Source of the DNA: Comamonas sp. lk
GTDB lineage: Bacteria > Bacteroidota > Bacteroidia > Chitinophagales > Chitinophagaceae
Reading direction: 5' to 3'
DNA length: 40,479 nucleotides
NCBI GenBank assembly: GCA_943327245.2
Contig: CALPWK020000003.1
Location: forward strand, 1-40,479
The translations under genes were made by a program, and so were the position numbers. Positions 9,958 to 20,600 of the stretch are shown one piece after another; positions within the stretch are counted from its first letter, which is position 1; each line of letters starts with the position of its first letter. A model generated the notes under the pieces. That model was not told the origin of the DNA and did not search any database. It saw nothing but the letters and a program-made list of their open reading frames with translations.

Positions 9958-11412
9958 ATGTCCAAGAAAAAATCAGATAATTCTAGGAGAGATTTTATTA
10001 AAAACGCCTCCCTTGCAATGGGTGGTTTTTATATCTTACCAAGACACGTATTAGGTGGGAAAGGATTTATTGCCCCGAGTGATAAATTACAAGTTGCCGG
10101 TATTGGTGCCGGTGGAAAAGGAGAAGGTGACTTATGGTCATTCTACCAAAGTGGAAAAGCAGATATCGCTTTTTTATGTGATGTAGATGAGCGTCAAACA
10201 GCTAAAAGCCGTGAGCGTTATCCAAAAGCAAAAGTTTACACAGACTATAGAGAGATGTTAGAAAAAGAAGCAAAGCATATTGATGCTGTTTCTGTTTCAA
10301 CACCCGACCATATGCATGCCGTTCAAGCAATGGCTGCTATGCAATTAAAGAAGCACGTATATGTTCAAAAGCCAATGGCACATGACATTTACGAAGCTCG
10401 TATGATGACTAAAGCGGCACACGATTATAATGTAGTTACGCAAATGGGTAACCAAGGATCTTCAGGTGACGGTGTACGCATGTTGCAAGACTGGAATGAA
10501 GCTGGTTTAATTGGAGACATTCATACTATTTATTGTTATACCGACAGACCAGTATGGCCTCAAGGTGTTATGCGTCCAACAACTAATTCACCTATCCCTG
10601 CTGGATTGAATTTTGACTTATGGTTAGGTACAGCTCCTCAAAGAGATTATTTTGATGGCTTGTTACCATTTAACTGGAGAGGATGGTGGGATTACGGTAC
10701 CGGCGCATTAGGTGATATGGCTTGTCATATTATGGCTCCTGCATTTGCAGTTGCTGGTTTAGGATATCCTATTGCTGCAGAATGTAGTGTTGCAACAAGA
10801 TACACCGCACCTTGGCAAAGACTGAATGCACCAGACAGTGGGCCAATGTCATCTCATATTATTTTAACTTTCAAAGGTCAAAATGGTAAACCAGACATTA
10901 AATTACATTGGATGGACGGTGGAATTCAACCTGAAAGACCAGCAGAACTAGGACCTAACGAGGTTATGGGTGATGGTGGAAATGGAGTGATTTTTGAAGG
11001 AACCAAAGGAAAAATGATGGCAGGTACTTATGGAGTAAATCCACAGTTATTGCCTACCAACTTAACTAATACTACAAAAGTGCCTCAAATAATTGAAAGA
11101 GTTAAGGGCGGTGCCGAAGGTCACTATGCAGCTTGGGTGGAAGCTTGTATTGCAGGACCAGGTAGTAGAGAAGCGAAAATGTTAAGTTCTCATTTTGATA
11201 TTGCAGGACCTTTAACAGAGTCCGTTTTAATGGGCAATCTTGCTATTAGAAGTTATGACGTTAAAGTGAACGACAAAAAAGGATTAACTACTTACCCAGG
11301 CCGTAATATTCAATTATTATGGGATGGACCAAATATGAAGATTACCAATTTCGATCCAGCGAATCAGTTCGTTAAAAGAACGTATCGTGATGGTTGGTCA
11401 TTGGGCGTTTAA
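9958..11412 (+). CDS. Tat-exported Gfo/Idh/MocA family oxidoreductase
   Basis: This 484-residue protein has a twin-arginine signal (SRRDFIK, R10-R11, then a hydrophobic stretch to about residue 27), so it is exported folded with its dinucleotide bound. The nucleotide-binding loop is GIGAGGKG (48-55). The usual E-K-P triad of the family reads V-Q-K-P here (136-139). A GDMACH segment (252-257) supplies the conserved Asp and His of the active site. Family members oxidise, reduce or eliminate at sugar carbons, often as closed redox cycles with bound NAD(P). It stands alone on the plus strand before a terminator, beside the 3-keto-sugar cluster. The substrate is unknown. Confidence 0.93.
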   Translation: MSKKKSDNSRRDFIKNASLAMGGFYILPRHVLGGKGFIAPSDKLQVAGIGAGGKGEGDLWSFYQSGKADIAFLCDVDERQTAKSRERYPKAKVYTDYREMLEKEAKHIDAVSVSTPDHMHAVQAMAAMQLKKHVYVQKPMAHDIYEARMMTKAAHDYNVVTQMGNQGSSGDGVRMLQDWNEAGLIGDIHTIYCYTDRPVWPQGVMRPTTNSPIPAGLNFDLWLGTAPQRDYFDGLLPFNWRGWWDYGTGALGDMACHIMAPAFAVAGLGYPIAAECSVATRYTAPWQRLNAPDSGPMSSHIILTFKGQNGKPDIKLHWMDGGIQPERPAELGPNEVMGDGGNGVIFEGTKGKMMAGTYGVNPQLLPTNLTNTTKVPQIIERVKGGAEGHYAAWVEACIAGPGSREAKMLSSHFDIAGPLTESVLMGNLAIRSYDVKVNDKKGLTTYPGRNIQLLWDGPNMKITNFDPANQFVKRTYRDGWSLGV

Positions 11413-11551: not shown

Positions 11552-12730
11552 ATGGAAAATTTAGCAAGCCAATTTTTATTAAGAAAGGATATTAATTTTT
11601 TAAACTTTGGGTCCTTTGGCGCTACGCCAAAGCCAGTATTTGATTATTACCAACAATGGCAAAGAGTATTGGAGGCAGAACCAGTGCAATTTATTGCGTT
11701 TGACGGTCCCGAATATTTATCAACTTCCCGAGCTGCTTTGGCTAAATTTATACATTGTGAAGACAAGGACGATCTGGTATACATAACCAACCCTTCCTTT
11801 GGAATAAATATCATTGCAAAAAGCTTTCCATTAGAAGAAGGAGATGAAATTTTAGCTACCGACATTGAATATGGGGCTTGCGATAGAACCTGGGAATATT
11901 ATTGTGAGAAGAAAAAAGCTATTTATAAAAGACAAAAAATTAGCTTGCCAATTACTACTAAAGAGCAATTCATTGAAGATTTTTTTAAAGGTTTAACCCC
12001 AAAAACAAAAGCTATTTTTATTAGTCATATTACAAGTGCTACTGCCTTAATATTTCCTGTTAAAGAAATATGTGAAATTGCAAAGTCAAAAGGCTTAATG
12101 ACTATTGTTGATGGGGCACATGCACCGGCACAAGTAGACTTAAGAATTAATGAATTACTAGTAGACTTTTATGTTGGGGCTTGTCATAAATGGATGATGG
12201 CTCCAAAGGGAGCAAGTTTTTTATACGCACATAAAAGCGTTCAGCATTTATGCGAACCCTTAGTGGTAAGTTGGGGTTATAAAGCGGCTAAACCTTCCGA
12301 GTCTAAATTTTTAGACTACCATCAAATGATTGGTACTAGAGACTTCTCTGCGTTTTTAGCAGTTACTATGAGTATTATTTTTATGCATGAAAATAATTGG
12401 CCTGCAGTTTCCAAAAAATGTCATGAAATGGTTTTAGCAAATGCTCCTGTTTTTTATGAGTTATTAGGTACACAACCAATTAGTCCATTAACTAGTGAAT
12501 GGATTGGACAAATGATTAGTATTCCTATTAAAACAAATGAGCCCGAAATATTACAAAGAAAATTATTTAAGGAGTTTAATATAGAAATCCCCATTATGCG
12601 TCAAGGAGACGATATTTATATGAGATACTCTATCAATGCATTTAATACTGTTCAGCATTTAGAAGCATTACATATCGCACTAAGTACTATCATTAAAACA
12701 ACTGACTTGATTGAAGTAAATAAAAAATAA
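11552..12730 (+). CDS. Class V aminotransferase-fold PLP enzyme (isopenicillin-N epimerase-like)
   Basis: This is a 392-residue cytosolic fold-type I PLP enzyme. The PLP lysine is K213 in GACHKWMMAPKG and the ring-binding Asp is D187 in IVDGAHAPAQVD. The N-terminal FLNFGSFGATP segment is typical of the CefD (isopenicillin-N epimerase)/kynureninase-like subgroup of class V. Real reactions in this subgroup include Cys desulfuration, epimerisation and hydrolysis, and none can be assigned. It sits between two terminators, so it is probably its own transcription unit. It shares a bidirectional terminator with the convergent TIM-barrel gene. Confidence 0.9.
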   Translation: MENLASQFLLRKDINFLNFGSFGATPKPVFDYYQQWQRVLEAEPVQFIAFDGPEYLSTSRAALAKFIHCEDKDDLVYITNPSFGINIIAKSFPLEEGDEILATDIEYGACDRTWEYYCEKKKAIYKRQKISLPITTKEQFIEDFFKGLTPKTKAIFISHITSATALIFPVKEICEIAKSKGLMTIVDGAHAPAQVDLRINELLVDFYVGACHKWMMAPKGASFLYAHKSVQHLCEPLVVSWGYKAAKPSESKFLDYHQMIGTRDFSAFLAVTMSIIFMHENNWPAVSKKCHEMVLANAPVFYELLGTQPISPLTSEWIGQMISIPIKTNEPEILQRKLFKEFNIEIPIMRQGDDIYMRYSINAFNTVQHLEALHIALSTIIKTTDLIEVNKK

Positions 12731-12810: not shown

Positions 12811-13671
12811 TTACCAAGTCAATGTTTTCATATACGCTGCGTCGTCTTTTGCAGCATCTAATTCATTTGTTCCTGTATAAGCTTCTTGCTCCACAATAAA
12901 GTATTCTACTCCTTGTTTAGCAACCTTAGGCAATAAAGTTTTATAGTCAATAGTACCTTTGCCAATTATGCAAGACTCATGTCCTTCTGCGGTATTAGTT
13001 TTTACTAAATCCTTAACATGTACCAATTTGAAACGGTTAGGGAATTTTTTCATGTAAGCAATTGGATCTACTCCTGCTGCAATTGTCCAATACATATCCA
13101 TTTCAAAGTCTACTGTGTCCGGATTTGTTAACTCAATCATGATGTCCTGAGGTACTTCCCCATTCATATTTACAAAAGAATAATCATGATTATGGTAAGC
13201 AAAACGAATACCATGTTTTTTAGCAATGTCTCCACTAGTATTAAACTCGTCAGCAAATTGCTTAAAATTGTCTATTGATTTTTGTGCCCCTTTGTAAGGA
13301 CATATTAAATATTTCATTCCAATTTCAGCAGCTTCTGCCGCTTTACGATCAAAGTCTTTTACATTATCACAATGCGCTGAAACCATTTTCATTCCTAAGC
13401 CATCCAAGGTTTTTTTGAACTCTGTATTTTTCATGCCCCAGAAAATACCTTGAGCACCTTCAAAGCTTTCTATTTGCTTATACCCACTTGCCGCTAAATG
13501 CTTTAAAACCCCAACAGGGTCTTTAGCTAATGCGTCTTTCACTGACCATAATTGTATGCCAAATTTATTTTGTTTATTAGCCATTGCTAATAATTCGTTA
13601 CGAAACGGCACACTCAACGCTAATCCTGCTAATGCTGAATTACGGAGAAAACTTCTTCTTGAATTGTTCAT
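12811..13671 (-). CDS. Tat-exported sugar phosphate isomerase/epimerase-like TIM barrel
   Basis: This 286-residue AP-endonuclease-2 (PF01261) TIM barrel has a twin-arginine leader (NNSRRSFLRN, R5-R6) and is therefore periplasmic. Barrel elements visible are the first strand FGIQLWSVKDAL, AYHNHDYSF with likely metal-binding His residues, FEMDMYWT, VHVKD, the IGKGTIDY strand before helix 8, and FIVEQEAY with a terminal Glu ligand. Relatives isomerise or dehydrate keto-sugars. I chose the ATG at 13671, because the frame upstream to 13731 would put 20 hydrophobic residues before the twin-arginine motif. A hairpin separates it from the upstream dehydrogenase subunit gene. Confidence 0.9.
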   Translation of the reverse strand: MNNSRRSFLRNSALAGLALSVPFRNELLAMANKQNKFGIQLWSVKDALAKDPVGVLKHLAASGYKQIESFEGAQGIFWGMKNTEFKKTLDGLGMKMVSAHCDNVKDFDRKAAEAAEIGMKYLICPYKGAQKSIDNFKQFADEFNTSGDIAKKHGIRFAYHNHDYSFVNMNGEVPQDIMIELTNPDTVDFEMDMYWTIAAGVDPIAYMKKFPNRFKLVHVKDLVKTNTAEGHESCIIGKGTIDYKTLLPKVAKQGVEYFIVEQEAYTGTNELDAAKDDAAYMKTLTW

Positions 13672-13713
13672 AAAATATGATTTAAAATGTAAGCAACCGT
13701 TTGCAATAATTAG

Positions 13714-13750
13714 AAAAAAAAGAGTCCACAATTATGTGAACTCTTTTTTT
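13714..13750. terminator. Hairpin with T-runs between dehydrogenase subunit and TIM-barrel genes
   Basis: Stem GAGTCCACA / TGTGAACTC with one mismatch and loop ATTA, flanked by A7-8 and T7. On the minus strand it lies only 6 bases after the subunit-3 gene and 42 bases before the TIM-barrel start. It may stop or attenuate transcription inside the cluster. Confidence 0.8.
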
Positions 13751-13756
13751 ATTTTC

Positions 13757-14323
13757 TTAAGAGGTAGCCCAAGCTTTTTCTCCCTTAACATATGGTACTG
13801 AACCTTCAAATTTACCTGGAACAGCAACATATCTTAATGCTTTAGTAGCTCCTACTTCGGATGTAAAGAATCCAGTAAGCGTTAACTGCTTGAACATGGT
13901 GAAATAATGTTTAGGATCTTCTGGTTTTGCAGCCGCTTGATAGTCTTTAGCTTCTTTGTCTAATGCCACTAATAAATCATGGCGACCTTTAGCGTCAGCA
14001 TCCAAGAAGGACTTACCATTTAATTTGGTAGAAGCATCGTCTAGTTTTTTCAAACCTTCCATAAAAATGGTTTGGTCTTTTGCTTCGTAACAATCTGTTA
14101 CCATTACTTGCATGAACTCACCCACTTTAGCTTCTTTAGCTCCTGGAGTTTTTGTAGCAGGCAAAATAGTTTCCGCCACTTCATTTAAAAAGGAGATATT
14201 CTCTTTTGTAAATGTAATACCTGTTGTCGCAGTTTTGCAACCAGATAAAAATGCTTCTGCGCCTAAAACAGTTCCACCCATAATGATGGCTACTCTTGAC
14301 AAGGCTTCTCTTCTGTTGATCAT
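13757..14323 (-). CDS. Gluconate 2-dehydrogenase subunit 3 family Tat lipoprotein
   Basis: This 188-residue protein matches the Gluconate_2-dh3 family (PF13618), the small chaperone-like subunit of membrane-bound GMC sugar dehydrogenases. The leader has a twin-arginine (NRREALSRVA, R3-R4), a hydrophobic core and a lipobox-like LSGC near residue 29, so it may be a Tat-exported lipoprotein. The mature part is helical and includes EVAETILPATKTPGAKEAKV and a C-terminal FFTSEVGATKAL segment typical of the family. In related FAD-dependent dehydrogenases this subunit carries the signal for the partner flavoprotein. It follows the GMC gene by 36 bases. Confidence 0.92.
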   Translation of the reverse strand: MINRREALSRVAIIMGGTVLGAEAFLSGCKTATTGITFTKENISFLNEVAETILPATKTPGAKEAKVGEFMQVMVTDCYEAKDQTIFMEGLKKLDDASTKLNGKSFLDADAKGRHDLLVALDKEAKDYQAAAKPEDPKHYFTMFKQLTLTGFFTSEVGATKALRYVAVPGKFEGSVPYVKGEKAWATS

Positions 14324-14359
14324 AATATTATTATTTAAAAAATTTAATAATTAGTGCAA

Positions 14360-16042
14360 TTATAAGTTTCCTTTTTTCAATTCATTAACAGCAAATTCAA
14401 CTGCTCTAGCAGTAAACGCCATATAAGTTAAAGAAGGGTTTACGCAAGAAGCACTTGCCATAAACGCACCGTCAGTAACAAATACGTTAGGGGCATCCCA
14501 AACTTGGTTGTTGCCGTTTAATACAGAAGTTTTAGGATCTCTACCCATACGTGCTGTACCCATTTCATGAATACCACGACCAGGAGTACCGTCACCTTCA
14601 CGCGCTTTTACGTTTTTAACCCCAGCTTTCTCTAACATTTCTTGTGCATCAACGATGATATCTTTACGCATTTTCTTTTCGTTGTCTTTCAATTCACAAT
14701 CAATATTCAAGACGTTTAATCCCCACTTGTCTTTAACTGTTTTGTCTAAGGTTACTTTATTAGTTGGATCTGGTAACATTTCACCAAAGCCACCCATACC
14801 AATAGTCCATCCACCTGGTTCAGTCATGGCGTCTTTGAAATCACCACCAATACTAAATTCTGCAACCTCATGCTGCCAACCTTGTCTTGTACCACCACCT
14901 TGGTAACCAAATCCACGTAAGTAATCACGCTTATCCGTTCCAACGTTTCTGTAACGAGGAATATAAAAACCATTTGCACGACGTCCGAATGTGTACTGGT
15001 CTTCAAATCCTTCCACAGTTCCACCTGCACCAATACCTAAATGGTGATCCATTAAATTTTTACCTAAAGCATCGCTACTGCTACCTAATCCACCTTCCCA
15101 AACGTCTGTAGCAGAATTCATTAACAACCAAGTACTATTTAAAGTAGACGCATTTACAAAAATAATTTTTGCTTTGTACTCAATCGTCTTATTTGTTTCC
15201 GCGTCTAAAACAGTTACACCTGTTGCACGCTTTTTATCTTTATCGTATTTAATTTCTGTAACAATACTCCAAGGTCTTAAAGTCAAATTTCCTGTAGCCA
15301 TTGCAGCTGGTAAAGTAGAAGACTGCGTACTAAAGTAGCCGCCGAATGGACAACCTAACCAACACTTATTTCTAAATTGACAACCTGGACGTCCACCATG
15401 AGGCACTGTGATATTTGCCGTACGGCCAATAATCAAATGACGATCTCCTTTATATATATCTTTTAGTCTTGCAGCAACGTCCTTCTCCACGCAAGTCAAG
15501 TCCATTGGAGGTAAAAATTGACCGTCTGGCAAAACTGCCAAACCATCACGGTTACCACTAATACCAGCAAATTTTTCTACATAGTCATACCATGGTTCAA
15601 TTTCCTTATAACGTACAGGCCAATCAACACCCACGCCTTCTTTACCATTCGCTTCAAAATCCAAGTCAGACCAACGGTAACTTTGACGACCCCACATTAA
15701 AGAACGACCACCAACATGGTATCCTCTAAACCAATCAAAACGCTTCGTCTCAGTATATGGACTTTCTTTATCAACGCACCAATAATCTAAATTGGTTTCA
15801 TTCAAAGGATAATCACGTTTCAAAACAGGATAGTCTTCGATCATTTTTTGAGTTCTTCCACCACGATGTGGATGATCCCAAGCCTCCTTGTTCGCATTTA
15901 CATAATCTTTGATGTGCTCGATATTTCTACCGCGCTCTAACATCAAAACCTTTAACCCTTTTTCTGTTAACTCTTTTGCAGCCCATCCACCGCTAATTCC
16001 AGAGCCAACTACGATTGCGTCATACTGTTGTTGATCAGCCAT
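14360..16042 (-). CDS. GMC family FAD-dependent sugar dehydrogenase, large subunit
   Basis: This 560-residue glucose-methanol-choline flavoprotein has the FAD-binding GSGISGG (13-19) and LERG (35-38) motifs, a GGRSLMWGRQ segment (111-120), and the C-terminal catalytic region with His492 (GIHEMGTARMG) and Asn535 (CVNPSLTYM). Three cysteines, C221, C227 and C231, in CQFRNKCWLGC may bind an Fe-S cluster as in the Burkholderia-type FAD glucose dehydrogenase. It has no signal peptide, although its partner, encoded directly downstream, has a Tat leader. It resembles gluconate 2-dehydrogenase and glucoside 3-dehydrogenase large subunits, which oxidise sugar hydroxyls, the latter to 3-keto-glycosides. 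The exact substrate is not readable. Confidence 0.94.
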   Translation of the reverse strand: MADQQQYDAIVVGSGISGGWAAKELTEKGLKVLMLERGRNIEHIKDYVNANKEAWDHPHRGGRTQKMIEDYPVLKRDYPLNETNLDYWCVDKESPYTETKRFDWFRGYHVGGRSLMWGRQSYRWSDLDFEANGKEGVGVDWPVRYKEIEPWYDYVEKFAGISGNRDGLAVLPDGQFLPPMDLTCVEKDVAARLKDIYKGDRHLIIGRTANITVPHGGRPGCQFRNKCWLGCPFGGYFSTQSSTLPAAMATGNLTLRPWSIVTEIKYDKDKKRATGVTVLDAETNKTIEYKAKIIFVNASTLNSTWLLMNSATDVWEGGLGSSSDALGKNLMDHHLGIGAGGTVEGFEDQYTFGRRANGFYIPRYRNVGTDKRDYLRGFGYQGGGTRQGWQHEVAEFSIGGDFKDAMTEPGGWTIGMGGFGEMLPDPTNKVTLDKTVKDKWGLNVLNIDCELKDNEKKMRKDIIVDAQEMLEKAGVKNVKAREGDGTPGRGIHEMGTARMGRDPKTSVLNGNNQVWDAPNVFVTDGAFMASASCVNPSLTYMAFTARAVEFAVNELKKGNL

Positions 16043-16095
16043 TGTTTAAAATTTATAAGTGTTATTGTTTATTATTAATATTTGAATTCAATTTA

Positions 16096-16995
16096 TTAAA
16101 TATCACAAATAGTTACCGCTTGTTGTAAGGAAGCTAAATGATCGGTACGCGTTGGCATAAATTCGTGGGCCACATAACCAGTATATCCTGTTGCTTTGAT
16201 AGCACGCATAATAGCCGGATAATTTAATTCCTGTGTGTCGTCAATCTCATGTCGTCCTGGAACACCTGCTGTGTGATAGTGTCCAAAATATTGATGATTG
16301 TTTTGAATAGAACGAATAATATCACCCTCGTCAATTTGCATATGATAAATGTCAAACAATATTTTAAAATTAGGAGAACCTAAGCGCTTGCAAAGCTCAA
16401 TACCCCATGCAGACTTGTCCCCCATATAGTCTTTGTGATCAATTCTGGAATTAAATAATTCAATTTGAATGGTCACTCCTTTAGCTTCTGCTAATGGCAT
16501 AATTTTTTTCAATCCTGTTACACAGTTGTTCAAACCCGTCTCGTCGTCCATGCCATTTCTATTTCCTGCAAAACAAATTAAATTTTTATAACCAGCCGCA
16601 GCTACTAGTTCAATGCCTTCTAAATAATCTTTCACTAACCAATCATGATTTTTTAAGTCATTCCAACCCTTCGTTAAACTAGTTTCTCCAGCGGTATAAC
16701 ACATGGAGCTATATAGTCCATATTGTTTAGCAATAGGCCATTCATTGGGCTTTAATAAATCAATAGCACCAAAACCAATTTGCTTAACTGCTTTACAAAG
16801 ATCCTCTAATGGAATTTCACTAAAGCACCATCTGCAAACCGAATGATTTATATTACCTTTTAAGAATGTAGAATTGGTTTCATTTTTATCAAAAGCCGCT
16901 AATACATTTTTTGGAATGGCAACACCTGCAGCAACAGCGGCAGATCCTGACAATACTTGCTTTATAAGCTTACGTCTGTTAACTAAGTTTGGCAT
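16096..16995 (-). CDS. Tat-exported hydroxypyruvate isomerase-like TIM barrel
   Basis: This 299-residue PF01261 barrel resembles hydroxypyruvate isomerase (Hyi/YgbM-like). The leader carries a twin-arginine (VNRRKLIKQ, R7-R8) and an Ala-rich hydrophobic core ending near AAF. Metal-ligand segments typical of the family are IQIELFNS (Glu), LFDIYHMQIDEGD (Asp, His), FGHYHTAGVPGRHE (His) and VAHEFMP (Glu). Export is odd for a hydroxypyruvate isomerase and suggests a different keto-sugar substrate. It is the first gene of the minus-strand arm, with its start 176 bases from the divergent Gfo/Idh gene, and is followed by the GMC gene after 53 bases. Confidence 0.9.
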   Translation of the reverse strand: MPNLVNRRKLIKQVLSGSAAVAAGVAIPKNVLAAFDKNETNSTFLKGNINHSVCRWCFSEIPLEDLCKAVKQIGFGAIDLLKPNEWPIAKQYGLYSSMCYTAGETSLTKGWNDLKNHDWLVKDYLEGIELVAAAGYKNLICFAGNRNGMDDETGLNNCVTGLKKIMPLAEAKGVTIQIELFNSRIDHKDYMGDKSAWGIELCKRLGSPNFKILFDIYHMQIDEGDIIRSIQNNHQYFGHYHTAGVPGRHEIDDTQELNYPAIMRAIKATGYTGYVAHEFMPTRTDHLASLQQAVTICDI

Positions 16996-17171
16996 GGCAA
17001 TACAATCTTGAATGAGTGTATAAATGTAAATTTTATTTGTAATCTTTTGAAATATTTTTATTCAAAAAATGGTGTTTTTTAAGAAATTATAAGGAAATTG
17101 CTTGAGGGTAATACCTAAAGTGTTATAATGACACAATAAAACGATTTCGCAAGCTAAAAAAAACCTTTAAA
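16996..17171. promoter_or_regulatory. Divergent promoter region of the sugar-oxidation cluster
   Basis: This 176-bp, strongly A/T-rich gap separates the two arms of the cluster and must hold both promoters. No exact TAnnTTTG element was found on either strand; TAATCTTTTG near 17040 is a near match with one extra base. An imperfect palindrome at 17120-17134 is listed separately. No reading frame of note lies here. Confidence 0.6.
17120..17134. promoter_or_regulatory. Imperfect palindrome, possible operator
   Basis: GTGTTATAATGACAC pairs at six of seven positions around a central A. It contains TATAAT and lies 37 bases before the cytosolic Gfo/Idh start. It could be a regulator site or a promoter core for the plus-strand arm; no regulator gene is nearby to match it. 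Confidence 0.3.
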
Positions 17172-18329
17172 ATGAATAGAAAATTACGCATGGGAATGGT
17201 AGGTGGTGGTAAAGATGCCTTTATAGGCGCCATTCACAGACTCGCTGCCAATATGGATGGATTAATTGAATTGAGTTGTGGTGCATTAAGTATCAACCCC
17301 GAAGTTGCTGTTGCCTCTGGTGAAGCATTATTCTTACCAAAAGAAAGGACCTATTTAACATACGAAGAAATGATCAAAGCGGAAGCGGCTTTGCCAGCAG
17401 ATAAGCGTATTGATTTTGTTACTGTAGTGACTCCTAATTTTGCGCATTTTGCTCCAGCTATGATGGCTTTAGATCATGGTTTTAATGTAGTTATTGAAAA
17501 GCCAATTACTTTTTCATTAGACGAAGCAAAGCAATTAAAACAAAAATTACAAGAAACAGGTTTGACACTTTGTTTAACACATACTTACTCAGGATACCCA
17601 ATGGTAAAACAGGCTAAGGCGATGGTGCATGAAGGTAAATTAGGTAAAATTCGAAAGGTATGGGTAGAATATCCTCAAGGATGGTTGAGTAGACTTTCTG
17701 AAAGAGAAGGAAATGCACAAGCAGCTTGGAGAACAGATCCAAAAAAATCTGGAAAGAGTTCTGTAATGGGTGACATTGGAACACATGCTGCACATTTATC
17801 AGAATATATTACCGGTGCAAAAATTACTGAAATTTGTGCTGAATTAAATACATTGGTTGATGGCCGTGCAATGGATGATGACGGCGCTGTTATGTTGAAA
17901 TTTGACAATGGTGCTAAAGGAGTATTGATGGCTTCTCAGGTTGCAGCTGGCGAAGAGAATGCTTTAAAAATAAGAGTTTATGGAGAATTAGGAGGCATTG
18001 AATGGTTCCAACATGAGCCCAATTCTTTAATCGTAAAATGGCTAGATCAACCTACTCAAATTTTAAGAGCAGGAAGTGCCCATTTATCAAGCATCGCATC
18101 GCATAATTGCCGCACTCCGGCCGGACATCCAGAGGGATATTTAGAAGCCTTTGCCAATATCTACCGCAACTTCGCATTAACATTAGGTTGTAAAATAGAC
18201 GGCACTACTCCTACGGAAGCTATGTTAGATTTTCCAGGAGTAGAGGATGGTTTAAGAGGTATGGCCTTTATTGATAATGTAGTTTTGTCTGCACATTCAG
18301 ATAAAAAATGGACACCTCATACCTTTTAA
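17172..18329 (+). CDS. Cytosolic Gfo/Idh/MocA family oxidoreductase
   Basis: This 385-residue oxidoreductase has no signal peptide. The nucleotide-binding loop is VGGGKDAF (10-17), the family triad E-K-P is intact at 109-111, and the active-site block GDIGTHAAHL supplies D201 and H205. It resembles inositol/glucose 2- or 3-dehydrogenase-like enzymes that interconvert hydroxyl and keto sugars with NAD(P). It leads the plus-strand arm and is followed by a TIM-barrel gene after 25 bases. An inferred role is reduction of a 3-keto-sugar released by the DUF1080 protein, or the reverse oxidation. Confidence 0.93.
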   Translation: MNRKLRMGMVGGGKDAFIGAIHRLAANMDGLIELSCGALSINPEVAVASGEALFLPKERTYLTYEEMIKAEAALPADKRIDFVTVVTPNFAHFAPAMMALDHGFNVVIEKPITFSLDEAKQLKQKLQETGLTLCLTHTYSGYPMVKQAKAMVHEGKLGKIRKVWVEYPQGWLSRLSEREGNAQAAWRTDPKKSGKSSVMGDIGTHAAHLSEYITGAKITEICAELNTLVDGRAMDDDGAVMLKFDNGAKGVLMASQVAAGEENALKIRVYGELGGIEWFQHEPNSLIVKWLDQPTQILRAGSAHLSSIASHNCRTPAGHPEGYLEAFANIYRNFALTLGCKIDGTTPTEAMLDFPGVEDGLRGMAFIDNVVLSAHSDKKWTPHTF

Positions 18330-18354
18330 TTAACCCTGCTATAATAATAAAATA

Positions 18355-19407
18355 ATGACAACAGTAAAAGGACCTGCTATATTTTTAGCGCAGTTTTTAG
18401 GAGACGAAGCGCCATTTAATACTCTAGAAAGTATTTGCAAATGGGCAGCAGGATTGGGTTTCAAAGGAGTTCAAATTCCAAGTTGGGATCCAAGATGTAT
18501 TGACTTACAAAAAGCTGCAGAAAGTAAAACCTATGCAGACGAAATAAAAGGAATTGTAAATGCAGCAGGATTAGAAATCACAGAATTGTCTACGCACTTA
18601 CAAGGACAACTCATTGCGGTACACCCTGCTTATGATGCACAGTTTGACGGATTTGCTCCTAAAGAAGTGCATGGTAATCCAAAAGCAAGAAGCGAATGGG
18701 CGGTACAACAATTAAAGTATGCTGCAAAAGCATCTCAAAACTTAGGGCTTAATGCACATGCAACATTTAGTGGTGCATTACTATGGCATACTGTGTATCC
18801 TTGGCCACAACGACCTGCAGGATTGGTGGAAACAGGTTTTACAGAATTAGGTAAAAGATGGCTTCCTATCTTAAATGAGTTTGATAAGGTAGGGGTTGAC
18901 TTATGTTATGAGATTCATCCAGGAGAAGACTTGCATGACGGTGTGTCTTATGAAATGTTTTTAGATAAAGTAAATCAACATCCTAGAGCTTGTTTATTAT
19001 ATGACCCATCGCATTTAGTATTACAGTGTATGGATTACAAAGGATTCATTGACATTTACCATGAGCGTATTAAAATGTTCCATGTAAAAGACGCTGAATT
19101 TAACCCAAGTGCAAAACAAGGAGTGTACGGTGGCTACCAAAATTGGATTGACCGTGCTGGAAGATTCAGGTCATTAGGTGATGGACAAGTAGATTTTAAA
19201 AGTATCTTTAGCAAGTTGGCTGCTTATGACTACAAAGGATGGGCAGTAATGGAATGGGAATGTTGCTTAAAACATCCAGAAGTGGGTGCTGCAGAAGGTG
19301 CTGTATTTATTAAAAATAATATAATCAAAGTGACAGAAAAGGCATTTGATGATTTTGCAAATACAGGATCAGACGAAGCATTTAACAAAAAAATATTAGG
19401 ACTTTAA
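18355..19407 (+). CDS. Cytosolic sugar phosphate isomerase/epimerase-like TIM barrel
   Basis: This 350-residue PF01261 barrel is the third of its fold in the cluster and the only one without a leader. Visible barrel elements are FKGVQIPSWDP after strand 1, ELSTHLQGQL, YEIHPGEDLHD with probable metal-binding Glu and His, YDPSHL (Asp, His), MFHVKDAEF, a G-x-W-I-D-R-A-G-R-F-R segment, and VMEWECC with the last Glu ligand. It is cytosolic and co-transcribed with the Gfo/Idh enzyme, which suggests that the two act on the same keto-sugar inside the cell. The reaction (isomerase, epimerase or dehydratase) is unknown. Confidence 0.92.
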   Translation: MTTVKGPAIFLAQFLGDEAPFNTLESICKWAAGLGFKGVQIPSWDPRCIDLQKAAESKTYADEIKGIVNAAGLEITELSTHLQGQLIAVHPAYDAQFDGFAPKEVHGNPKARSEWAVQQLKYAAKASQNLGLNAHATFSGALLWHTVYPWPQRPAGLVETGFTELGKRWLPILNEFDKVGVDLCYEIHPGEDLHDGVSYEMFLDKVNQHPRACLLYDPSHLVLQCMDYKGFIDIYHERIKMFHVKDAEFNPSAKQGVYGGYQNWIDRAGRFRSLGDGQVDFKSIFSKLAAYDYKGWAVMEWECCLKHPEVGAAEGAVFIKNNIIKVTEKAFDDFANTGSDEAFNKKILGL

Positions 19408-19472
19408 ACCTAGCAAAAGACTTATAAAAAAAGATCGCTTAAAATATTGAATGAAAAATTAAAAATTAGACT

Positions 19473-19865
19473 ATGAAAAAGGTATTTGGAACATTAGCAG
19501 CAGTTGTCGTATTAATGGCATGTGGCGGCGGAACAGAAAAAAAAGCAACTGAAGAAACAGCAGCACCAGCAGCTACAGCAGCAAATGATTTGTCAGCTAA
19601 TCCTGATTATCAAAAAGGCTTAGCTTTAGTTGCAGGAAGTGATTGTTTAACTTGTCATAAAATAAATGAGAAAAATATTGGACCTGCTTACAAAGACGTT
19701 GCAGCAAAATATGAAAACAACGAGGAAAATATTAAAATGTTAGCTACTAAAATAATTAAAGGGGGTGCAGGTGTTTGGGGCGCAATACCAATGACTCCAC
19801 ATCCACAAATCAAAGAAGAAGATGCAGAAGCAATGGTTAAATATGTATTGCTTTTGAAAAAATAG
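19473..19865 (+). CDS. Lipoprotein c-type cytochrome
   Basis: This 130-residue protein has a lipoprotein signal with lipobox L-M-A-C (C17), then an Ala/Thr/Glu-rich linker (18-40) and a class I cytochrome c domain. The haem site is CLTCH (C58, C61, H62), and Met107 in IPMTPHP is the likely sixth ligand, as in cytochrome c551/c552. It is therefore tethered to a membrane and exposed to the periplasm. Next to a GMC dehydrogenase it most likely accepts electrons from the flavoprotein and passes them to the respiratory chain. It starts 65 bases after the TIM-barrel gene and 39 bases before DUF1080. Confidence 0.94.
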   Translation: MKKVFGTLAAVVVLMACGGGTEKKATEETAAPAATAANDLSANPDYQKGLALVAGSDCLTCHKINEKNIGPAYKDVAAKYENNEENIKMLATKIIKGGAGVWGAIPMTPHPQIKEEDAEAMVKYVLLLKK

Positions 19866-19904
19866 GTTTTAAATATTGAGCTTAAAAAACAAAAACGATT
19901 TATT

Positions 19905-20600
19905 ATGAAAACACTCTTGCTTGCCCTTTTAACTACATTTGTTTGTGTTCAAACAAATGCACAAGACAAATGGATTGCTTTATTTGACGGAAAAACAACC
20001 AATGGCTGGCATACTTATGGCAAGGATGCTGTAGGAGAAGCTTGGCAAGTAGTAGACGGTGCAATAGTATTGAACCCATTAAATAAAGCATCGTCCCAAG
20101 TTAAAGGTGGTGGTGATATTGTTTCGAATGAAAGCTTTAATGATTTTCATTTGCAATTAGAATGGAAAATTTCAAAGAACGGCAATAGCGGTGTCATCTT
20201 TTTTGTACAAGATGAACCAAAAAAATACAATCATATTTGGTATACAGGTCCAGAAATGCAAGTCTTAGATAATGACGGACATCCAGATGCAAAAATCTAC
20301 AAGCACAGAGCTGGTAATTTATATGATTTAGTTGCTGGAGTAGAAGGTGCTACTAAGCCAGTTGGAGATTGGAACTTGGTAGATATTATTAATGAAAAGG
20401 GAACATTGACTTTGAAATTAAATGGTATTACTACAGTTACTACTACATTAGGTGATGCAAATTGGGCTAACTTAATTAAAGACAGCAAATTCTCAAAAGG
20501 AGAATCACCAGACTTTGGAAAAGTTTTTTCTGGACATATTGGTTTACAAGATCATGGTAACCAAGTTTCCTATAGAAATATCCGTATTCAAAAGTTATAG
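19905..20600 (+). CDS. DUF1080 (3-keto-disaccharide hydrolase family) protein
   Basis: This 231-residue secreted protein has a Sec signal (about 1-20, ending TNAQ) and a single PF06439 concanavalin-like domain. Conserved pieces are WIALFDGKTTNGW (23-35), GDIVSNESFNDFHLQLEWK (70-88), NGNSGVIFF (92-100), GPEMQVLDNDGHPDA (115-129), and the closing GHIGLQDHGNQVSYRNI (210-226). Pfam names this family after 3-keto-disaccharide hydrolase, and family members act on glycosides already oxidised at C3. Its position in the same unit as a cytochrome and across from a GMC dehydrogenase fits that role. It ends four bases before tadA. Confidence 0.92.
   Translation: MKTLLLALLTTFVCVQTNAQDKWIALFDGKTTNGWHTYGKDAVGEAWQVVDGAIVLNPLNKASSQVKGGGDIVSNESFNDFHLQLEWKISKNGNSGVIFFVQDEPKKYNHIWYTGPEMQVLDNDGHPDAKIYKHRAGNLYDLVAGVEGATKPVGDWNLVDIINEKGTLTLKLNGITTVTTTLGDANWANLIKDSKFSKGESPDFGKVFSGHIGLQDHGNQVSYRNIRIQKL

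Follow-up and report, generated by a model that had tools for sequence, protein, structure and literature searches.

Glycosides can be cleaved by way of 3-keto-glycosides, a chemistry for which PMC13273386 cites Nasseri 2024 and Kastner 2024. This chemistry is known from other bacteria. The sequence of oxidation, elimination, hydration and reduction has been published for Agrobacterium tumefaciens and two other operons (PMC10628242), a four-step pathway is described in PMC13273386, and LacABC-type genes near DUF1080 genes have been published for Caulobacter and Bacteroidetes (PMC9007349). Here we describe a gene cluster on contig CALPWK020000003.1 (assembly GCA_943327245.2, Comamonas sp. lk, placed by GTDB in the Chitinophagaceae, Bacteroidota), of which positions 1 to 40,479, the whole stretch analysed, are called the window. 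With a probability of about 85%, this locus encodes a stepwise, redox-assisted, glycoside-cutting route.

The A. tumefaciens GlycDH/AtOGE/AtHYD/Gfo operon (PMC10628242; PDB 8bvk, 8ro4) and the window have in common a GMC-type dehydrogenase with a twin-arginine translocation (Tat) protein, an OGE-type barrel, a hydratase barrel (68% identical) and a Gfo reductase, for the same four-step chemistry. The window differs in having a Tat-exported OGE-type barrel and, in addition, a DUF1080 gene, a cytochrome c gene, a second exported barrel (barB) and a BT2158-like enzyme. The Caulobacter LacABC and DUF1080 lactose route (PMC9007349) is similar in its LacABC-type dehydrogenase near an exported DUF1080 protein; the available part of that paper does not mention a hydratase, an OGE-type lyase, a Gfo reductase or barB. 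Bacteroides and Alistipes enzymes (BT2157, BT2158; 3-keto-β-glucopyranoside-1,2-lyases AL1 and BT1, PDB 8tcd and 8tct) represent the same families of barrel lyase, DUF1080 protein and Gfo/Idh 3-dehydrogenase. Those bacteria oxidise by Gfo/Idh enzymes, whereas the window adds a flavoprotein–cytochrome system and a cytosolic hydratase/reductase pair. Finally, the Rhizobium radiobacter glucoside 3-dehydrogenase, as described in PMC9915066, also combines a flavin adenine dinucleotide (FAD) enzyme with a mono-haem c. The original prediction, made from the DNA letters alone, had suggested that this could be a variant pathway, and that novelty is limited: the order of oxidation, elimination, hydration and reduction was already in print, while this gene combination, and its association with barB, were not met in the open-licence literature searched. 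By title, none of the papers listed by a search that joined GMC, subunit 3 and DUF1080 concerns this cluster, which does not prove absence in print. The locus brings together the two kinds of 3-dehydrogenase, the two kinds of lyase and the enzymes that act after them.

Window proteins were scanned against Pfam (curated cut-offs), NCBIfam and PDB sequences. Eight genes lie where the original prediction had placed them, and all exceed the Pfam cut-offs for the families it had named (PF13618, 132.9 bits; GMC_oxred_C, 80.9; GMC_oxred_N, 61; GFO_IDH_MocA_C3, 97.1; the three PF01261 barrels, 67.1, 89.9 and 120.8; Cytochrom_C, 41.6; 3keto-disac_hyd, 166.7). One start was revised: barA, previously begun at TTG 13731, most likely begins at ATG 13671, with the Tat motif following immediately. 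The functional set also reaches further left than first described, to the Tat-exported Gfo/Idh gene that heads the following list.

9958–11412, + strand: Tat-exported Gfo/Idh oxidoreductase, a relative of B. theta BT2158 (NCBIfam and PDB matches; outside the original coordinates)
12811–13671, − strand: barA, Tat-exported PF01261 barrel of 3-keto-β-glucoside 1,2-lyase (β-eliminase) type
13715–13750, − strand: terminator-like hairpin between subunit 3 and barA, 16 pairs, 4 G-C (consensus scan only)
13757–14323, − strand: subunit 3, a Tat lipoprotein of family PF13618 that would be the small subunit and carrier of the GMC dehydrogenase (Pfam, RR motif, lipobox)
14360–16042, − strand: GMC flavoprotein, forming the catalytic subunit of what is probably a respiratory glucoside 3-dehydrogenase (Pfam, motifs)
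16096–16995, − strand: barB, Tat-exported hydroxypyruvate-isomerase-like PF01261 barrel
16996–17171, no strand: divergent intergenic region between the arms, 176 bp, without a permease gene
17172–18329, + strand: cytosolic Gfo/Idh oxidoreductase, probable 3-keto-glucose reductase (Pfam; PDB 3v5n, 347.5 bits)
18355–19407, + strand: cytosolic PF01261 barrel of 2-hydroxy-3-keto-glucal hydratase type (8ro4 match)
19473–19865, + strand: mono-haem c lipoprotein that probably accepts electrons from the dehydrogenase (Cytochrom_C)
19905–20600, + strand: exported DUF1080 / 3keto-disac_hyd protein, putative second 3-keto-glycoside lyase/hydrolase (PF06439, PDB, invariant residues)

In the proposed route, the GMC flavoprotein, with lipoprotein subunit 3 as its carrier through the Tat system, would oxidise C3 of the glycoside's sugar in the periplasm and pass electrons through the mono-haem c lipoprotein to the respiratory chain. 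The resulting 3-keto-glycoside would undergo β-elimination, mainly by barA if β-linked and probably by the DUF1080 protein if α-linked, to release the aglycone or second sugar together with 2-hydroxy-3-keto-glucal, which the DUF1080 protein may also hydrate. After entering the cytosol through a permease encoded, in this lineage, elsewhere, the product would be converted by the hydratase to 3-keto-glucose and reduced by the Gfo/Idh enzyme, with NAD(P)H, to glucose. The exported BT2158-like neighbour would serve as a second 3-dehydrogenase that uses nicotinamide adenine dinucleotide (NAD), and barB would act on the 3-keto product of the GMC enzyme. We infer these reactions, their substrates, the α/β split and the import step from what the sequences show: the families of the genes, active-site residues that are kept, signals for export, and the conservation and co-occurrence of the genes. 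The original prediction of a 3-keto-glycoside alternative to glycosidases, with periplasmic GMC oxidation and DUF1080 cleavage, is supported.

Compartments were assigned from orthologues in 80 loci fetched with the GMC protein, which are close relatives and not independent, by counting twin-arginine pairs within the first 45 residues. Such a pair is present in barA (62/62), barB (72/79), subunit 3 (75/75) and the BT2158-like enzyme (42/48), and in no copy of the GMC protein (0/80), hydratase (0/58), cytosolic Gfo/Idh enzyme (0/64), DUF1080 protein (0/55) or cytochrome (0/55). A lipobox-like motif occurs in 68/75 subunit 3 and 42/55 cytochrome sequences, and the DUF1080 protein has, by eye, an ordinary signal peptide. 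Oxidation and cleavage are thus placed in the periplasm and two enzymes in the cytosol.

Two proteins are candidates for the cleavage step. In barA, the AtOGE metal ligands H132, D163, H189 and E233 and the catalytic H134 are all aligned and conserved, and the fold matches solved 3-keto-β-glucoside 1,2-lyases and β-eliminases above other PF01261 enzymes; barA is of 3-keto-β-glucoside 1,2-lyase / O-glycoside β-eliminase type, with its activity predicted from these residues. Its catalytic His is H161 by alignment numbering and H162 when counted from Met. It was originally supposed that DUF1080 alone breaks the bond, a view that is not supported, as barA carries the β-eliminase active site. The DUF1080 protein itself is well matched (PF06439, cut-off 26.8 bits; 153 bits to 8tda, 8rr2 and 3osd), and E117, Q119, D122, H126 and H217 are among its invariant residues in 55 sequences, the window's included. 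Tentatively, H217, in a QDHG motif, would correspond to H275, the hydration histidine of the B. theta lyase, by counting back from the 290-residue BT2157. Loss of pocket residues had been named as a sign against the DUF1080 assignment; the protein keeps residues common to the solved homologues, and the assignment is not refuted. Five DUF1080 domains occur in the genome of the window, on contigs 3, 16, 25 and 188, with the two on contig 25 listed with one 683-residue open frame.

The cytosolic barrel aligns with 8ro4 over residues 1–350 at 584.8 bits, with 239/350 residues identical (68%). This PDB entry is AtHYD of A. tumefaciens, whose role was termed preliminary in PMC10628242 and whose later PDB title names a hydratase. 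The barrel is thus of hydratase type, not an isomerase, and is predicted to hydrate 2-hydroxy-3-keto-glucal; the isomerisation of the keto-sugar in the original prediction is not supported. In the plasmid clusters compared below, the cytosolic Gfo/Idh gene adjoins the hydratase gene or is separated from it by a single gene. Its product is taken as the equivalent of the A. tumefaciens operon reductase, and is probably a 3-keto-glucose reductase. Two other routes were tried and rejected. A levoglucosan route would call for a levoglucosan dehydrogenase, to which the Gfo/Idh enzyme scores 104.7 bits (NCBIfam cut-off 650). An inositol route would call for myo-inosose-2 dehydratase IolE (TIGR04379, cut-off 290 bits), to which barA and the cytosolic barrel score 55.0 and 60.9 bits.

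The GMC protein carries an FAD motif at residue 13, a three-Cys motif from C221, His492 and Asn535. The three-Cys motif lines up with a stretch of fructose dehydrogenase that is rich in cysteine, and presumably binds an iron–sulphur cluster, as in related glucose and fructose dehydrogenases, on the model of which we also take the Tat subunit 3 to carry the GMC subunit. Of 127 GMC open reading frames of the loci, 125 keep the Cys motif, 126 keep the His motif and 109 match a simple pattern for the Asn. In the cytochrome, C17, C58, C61, H62 and M107 are invariant (55 sequences, window included). A GMC subunit, a PF13618 Tat subunit and a cytochrome c are thus all present, as in the LacABC / GlycDH-type glucoside 3-dehydrogenase, and in the Rhizobium radiobacter enzyme a mono-haem c is the electron acceptor (PMC9915066). 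The closest GMC relatives are in Sediminibacterium, other Chitinophagaceae and unclassified Bacteroidetes, mostly in metagenome genomes (locus L001, 99% identical).

Tandem GMC genes, 2–5 full-length same-strand copies 47–82% identical to the window's and mostly 3–200 bp apart, occur in 22/80 loci (L042, L049, L053, L055, L059, L062, L065, L071, L072, L073, L075 and 11 more). In the sequence covered, exactly one subunit 3 gene is present in 18 of these 22 loci, two in 1 and none in 3; the arrays look like interchangeable catalytic subunits on one shared Tat carrier. Such arrays were not met in the open-licence literature searched, where they were not searched for by name.

We next consider conservation of the cluster. 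With a threshold of 70 bits (45 for the cytochrome), the 42 of 80 loci that have at least 8 kb on both sides of the GMC gene contained, anywhere on the stretch, barB in 41, the cytosolic Gfo/Idh gene in 41, the hydratase in 41, subunit 3 in 40, DUF1080 in 39, the cytochrome in 38 and barA in 33. Wherever a gene was found in the 80 loci, its strand relative to GMC was constant, with at most one exception per gene (L076 or L066). The gene association is not due to chance.

Plasmid records widen this support beyond the closely related loci. On plasmids of Hymenobacter volaticus, Xanthomonas sacchari, Paracoccus liaowanqingii and Palleronia, the cluster lies within about 9–11 kb in other gene orders and comprises GMC (67–71% identical), subunit 3, barB (54–57%), barA-like, DUF1080, hydratase (61–79%) and Gfo genes, with a cytochrome gene annotated in the Hymenobacter and Xanthomonas plasmids. 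Most cluster genes, without a DUF1080 match, are found on an unannotated record of Halomonas PA16-9, and the portion covered of the Ketogulonicigenium record contains neither barB nor DUF1080. On Rhizobium and Agrobacterium plasmids, the stretches covered around an OGE-like barrel carry no annotated GMC gene, and the UR115 stretch has no GMC match above 60 bits.

Among 148 genomes of the window's phylum, a close GMC enzyme is found in 44, the hydratase in 33, barB in 38 and the BT2158-like enzyme in 45 (the GMC count drops five genomes with weak matches only, best E 1e-63 to 1e-86; BT2158-like matches have E up to 1e-100). The GMC enzyme accompanies the hydratase in 33/33 genomes, barB in 38/38 and the BT2158-like enzyme in 41/45. 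By these counts, a good share of the Bacteroidota possess this non-hydrolytic route, which is masked by public names such as sugar phosphate isomerase/epimerase, hydroxypyruvate isomerase and putative glycosyl hydrolase.

The importer differs between clusters. The gap between the Gfo and barB genes was measurable in 67 stretches (66/80 loci and the Xanthomonas plasmid), being long in 35 and short (<500 bp) in 32. Nine open reading frames of long gaps were printed, of which eight were scanned, and all eight were MFS_1. The importer is of nucleoside-permease type in Hymenobacter and Xanthomonas and an ATP-binding cassette (ABC) type in Paracoccus and Palleronia. The MFS gene of L044 gave no match in the window's own genome, an empty result that does not show its absence. 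That genome does hold a nucleoside-permease-type gene on contig 65, 57% identical to the Hymenobacter one and beside another Gfo/Idh gene. Contig 65 (L085) is itself a second related locus, with a 43% identical GMC relative at its far end.

Several observations weigh against the proposed glycoside-cutting route. All seven partners occur together in only 29/42 loci, and 11/44 GMC genomes are without the hydratase, so the modules are separable. In the four plasmids, identity to the window's proteins is only 24–29% for the DUF1080 proteins and 24–35% for the barA-like barrels; no cytochrome gene is annotated in the stretches from Paracoccus and Palleronia. The window's clade, which has the short gap, has no permease in the cluster, and the hypergeometric values for co-occurrence (9e-19 to 2e-29) ignore kinship. 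Of ten DUF1080 genes in Pedobacter, none showed a phenotype on lactose (PMC9007349), and B. theta deleted for BT2157 or BT2158 grew normally on raffinose-family sugars (PMC11501099). Finally, among PDB entries the GMC protein matches fructose and glucose dehydrogenases best (120–136 bits). The original prediction had singled out the best GMC matches as a check on its C3 chemistry; C3 oxidation is deduced from the partners and not from the protein's own sequence, because its PDB relatives oxidise fructose or glucose.

The last point fits an enzyme that is a glucose 1- or aldonate dehydrogenase, in a cluster for direct sugar oxidation or inositol breakdown, as do the weak scores of two barrels against IolE. 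We consider this very improbable: those scores are far below the IolE cut-off, the relatives of the hydratase and lyase use C3-oxidised glycosides or the derived glucal (PMC10628242), and the linkage of the genes is conserved.

Within the proposed glycoside-cutting route, barB has several possible roles. Its sequence matches hydroxypyruvate isomerase 3ngf (74.0 bits) above epimerases (38.5) and YcjR (30.8), and its E-D-H-E metal set is kept. Fold comparison with a predicted model (mean predicted local distance difference test score 78.8; weak loops 182–193 and 245–249) did not discriminate between hydroxypyruvate isomerase, YcjR and the ketose epimerases. In the genomes, barB occurs without the hydratase in 9 and GMC without barB in 6, and barB is within 12.5 kb of the GMC gene in 20/38. 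Since the occurrence of barB tracks the GMC enzyme rather than the hydratase, its substrate is probably the 3-keto-glycoside. C2 or C4 epimerisation, a carbonyl shift and further elimination all fit. Tentatively, at rather less than even odds, we propose that barB is a step of the respiratory route acting beside the carbonyl of the GMC enzyme's 3-keto-glycosides, where it would either epimerise C4 or C2 or interconvert the 3-keto and 2-keto forms. In that case a single gluco-type complement of lyases, hydratase and reductase could handle many sugars. Interchangeable GMC subunits, often in tandem, would feed it, and priming would be shared with the NAD-type BT2158-like enzyme.

The more specific possibilities are each less secure. 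An exported 3-keto-glycoside epimerase (C4 or C2) would admit galacto- or manno-configured substrates to the gluco-type route, and 3-keto-galactosides would then have a fate; the sequence is, however, nearer to hydroxypyruvate isomerase than to epimerases or YcjR, D-psicose 3-epimerase (NCBIfam) scores 57.7 bits against a cut-off of 300, and the active-site loops of the model are of low confidence, which leaves this reading doubtful. A hydroxypyruvate-isomerase-type shift of the carbonyl between C3 and C2, rescuing 2-keto-glycosides formed spontaneously, would suit the closest families, Hyi and 2-oxo-tetronate isomerase (99.3 and 101.4 bits), and the spontaneous 3-keto to 2-keto isomerisation reported in PMC10628242 and PMC13273386. 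It is nonetheless unlikely, since barB is far under both curated cut-offs (353.45 and 325) and the isomerisation in PMC13273386 concerns a C-glycoside. As for a further lyase for other 3-keto-glycosides, for example of the C-glycoside-cleaving kind, barB E179 falls on the AtOGE H132 position in the barA profile, where C-glycoside eliminases also have Glu. But barB reads E179-L-F, with no His two residues past the ligand (AtOGE H134), and other fold matches score higher; a lyase is quite improbable, although the profile alignment is gapped here and an invariant H187 lies close by. With barB found only in dehydrogenase-holding genomes (38/38), the fate of non-gluco 3-keto sugars, such as 3-ketogalactose, becomes directly testable through this enzyme. 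Of twelve stretches examined in which barB is away from a GMC gene, nine showed barB after an open-reading-frame filter, and no neighbour in these matched the window's proteins except in L103, where a 30% identical DUF1080 relative lies about 4.5 kb from barB; in L096, L099 and L100 the filter did not show barB.

The BT2158-like enzyme scores 475.7 bits to NCBIfam BT_2158_fam (NF058561, cut-off 750), making it a relative and not an equivalog, and 347.5 bits to PDB 8tdf. A match of at least 55% identity is present in 43/80 loci, and 29/42 full-flank loci pass the threshold, some with weak matches (identity down to 27%). One may speculate that the GMC enzyme, a flavin enzyme whose electrons go to respiration, could provide an initial 3-keto sugar to a BT2158-like enzyme with tightly bound NAD. 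There is an even chance that the two instead work in parallel, as functionally uncoupled 3-dehydrogenases acting on different substrates. BT2158 itself acts in the periplasm as a glycoside 3-dehydrogenase and is required for the use of disaccharides (PMC11300592), and its relative is without a close GMC enzyme in 4/45 genomes and not a neighbour of it in 30/45. Coupling is favoured by the presence of both in 41/45 genomes, by their genes lying within 12.5 kb in 15/45, from four families, and by Mucilaginibacter (L076), where the BT2158-like gene separates the GMC gene from that of subunit 3.

Promoter-like and terminator-like sites were not commoner in a consensus scan of the region than in shuffles (terminator-like sites, 7 vs. 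6.0, sd 2.1). Given the hairpin at 13715–13750 upstream of it, barA might have its own promoter. To the right of 22 kb, ten proteins were scanned, nine from families unlinked to the route and one without a family; the left 9.9 kb of the window was assessed by eye only. Between the BT2158-like gene and barA lies an aminotransferase class V-like gene (11552–12730, + strand) with a relative in 26/80 loci and no curated NCBIfam cut-off reached among 25 families listed. In L007, an extra gene of about 3 kb lies to the right of barA (13288–16215, + strand), and similar gaps occur in L009, L010, L014 and L018. Its 975-residue product, read in L007 only, looks by eye like an FAD-linked oxidase / Fe-S fusion.

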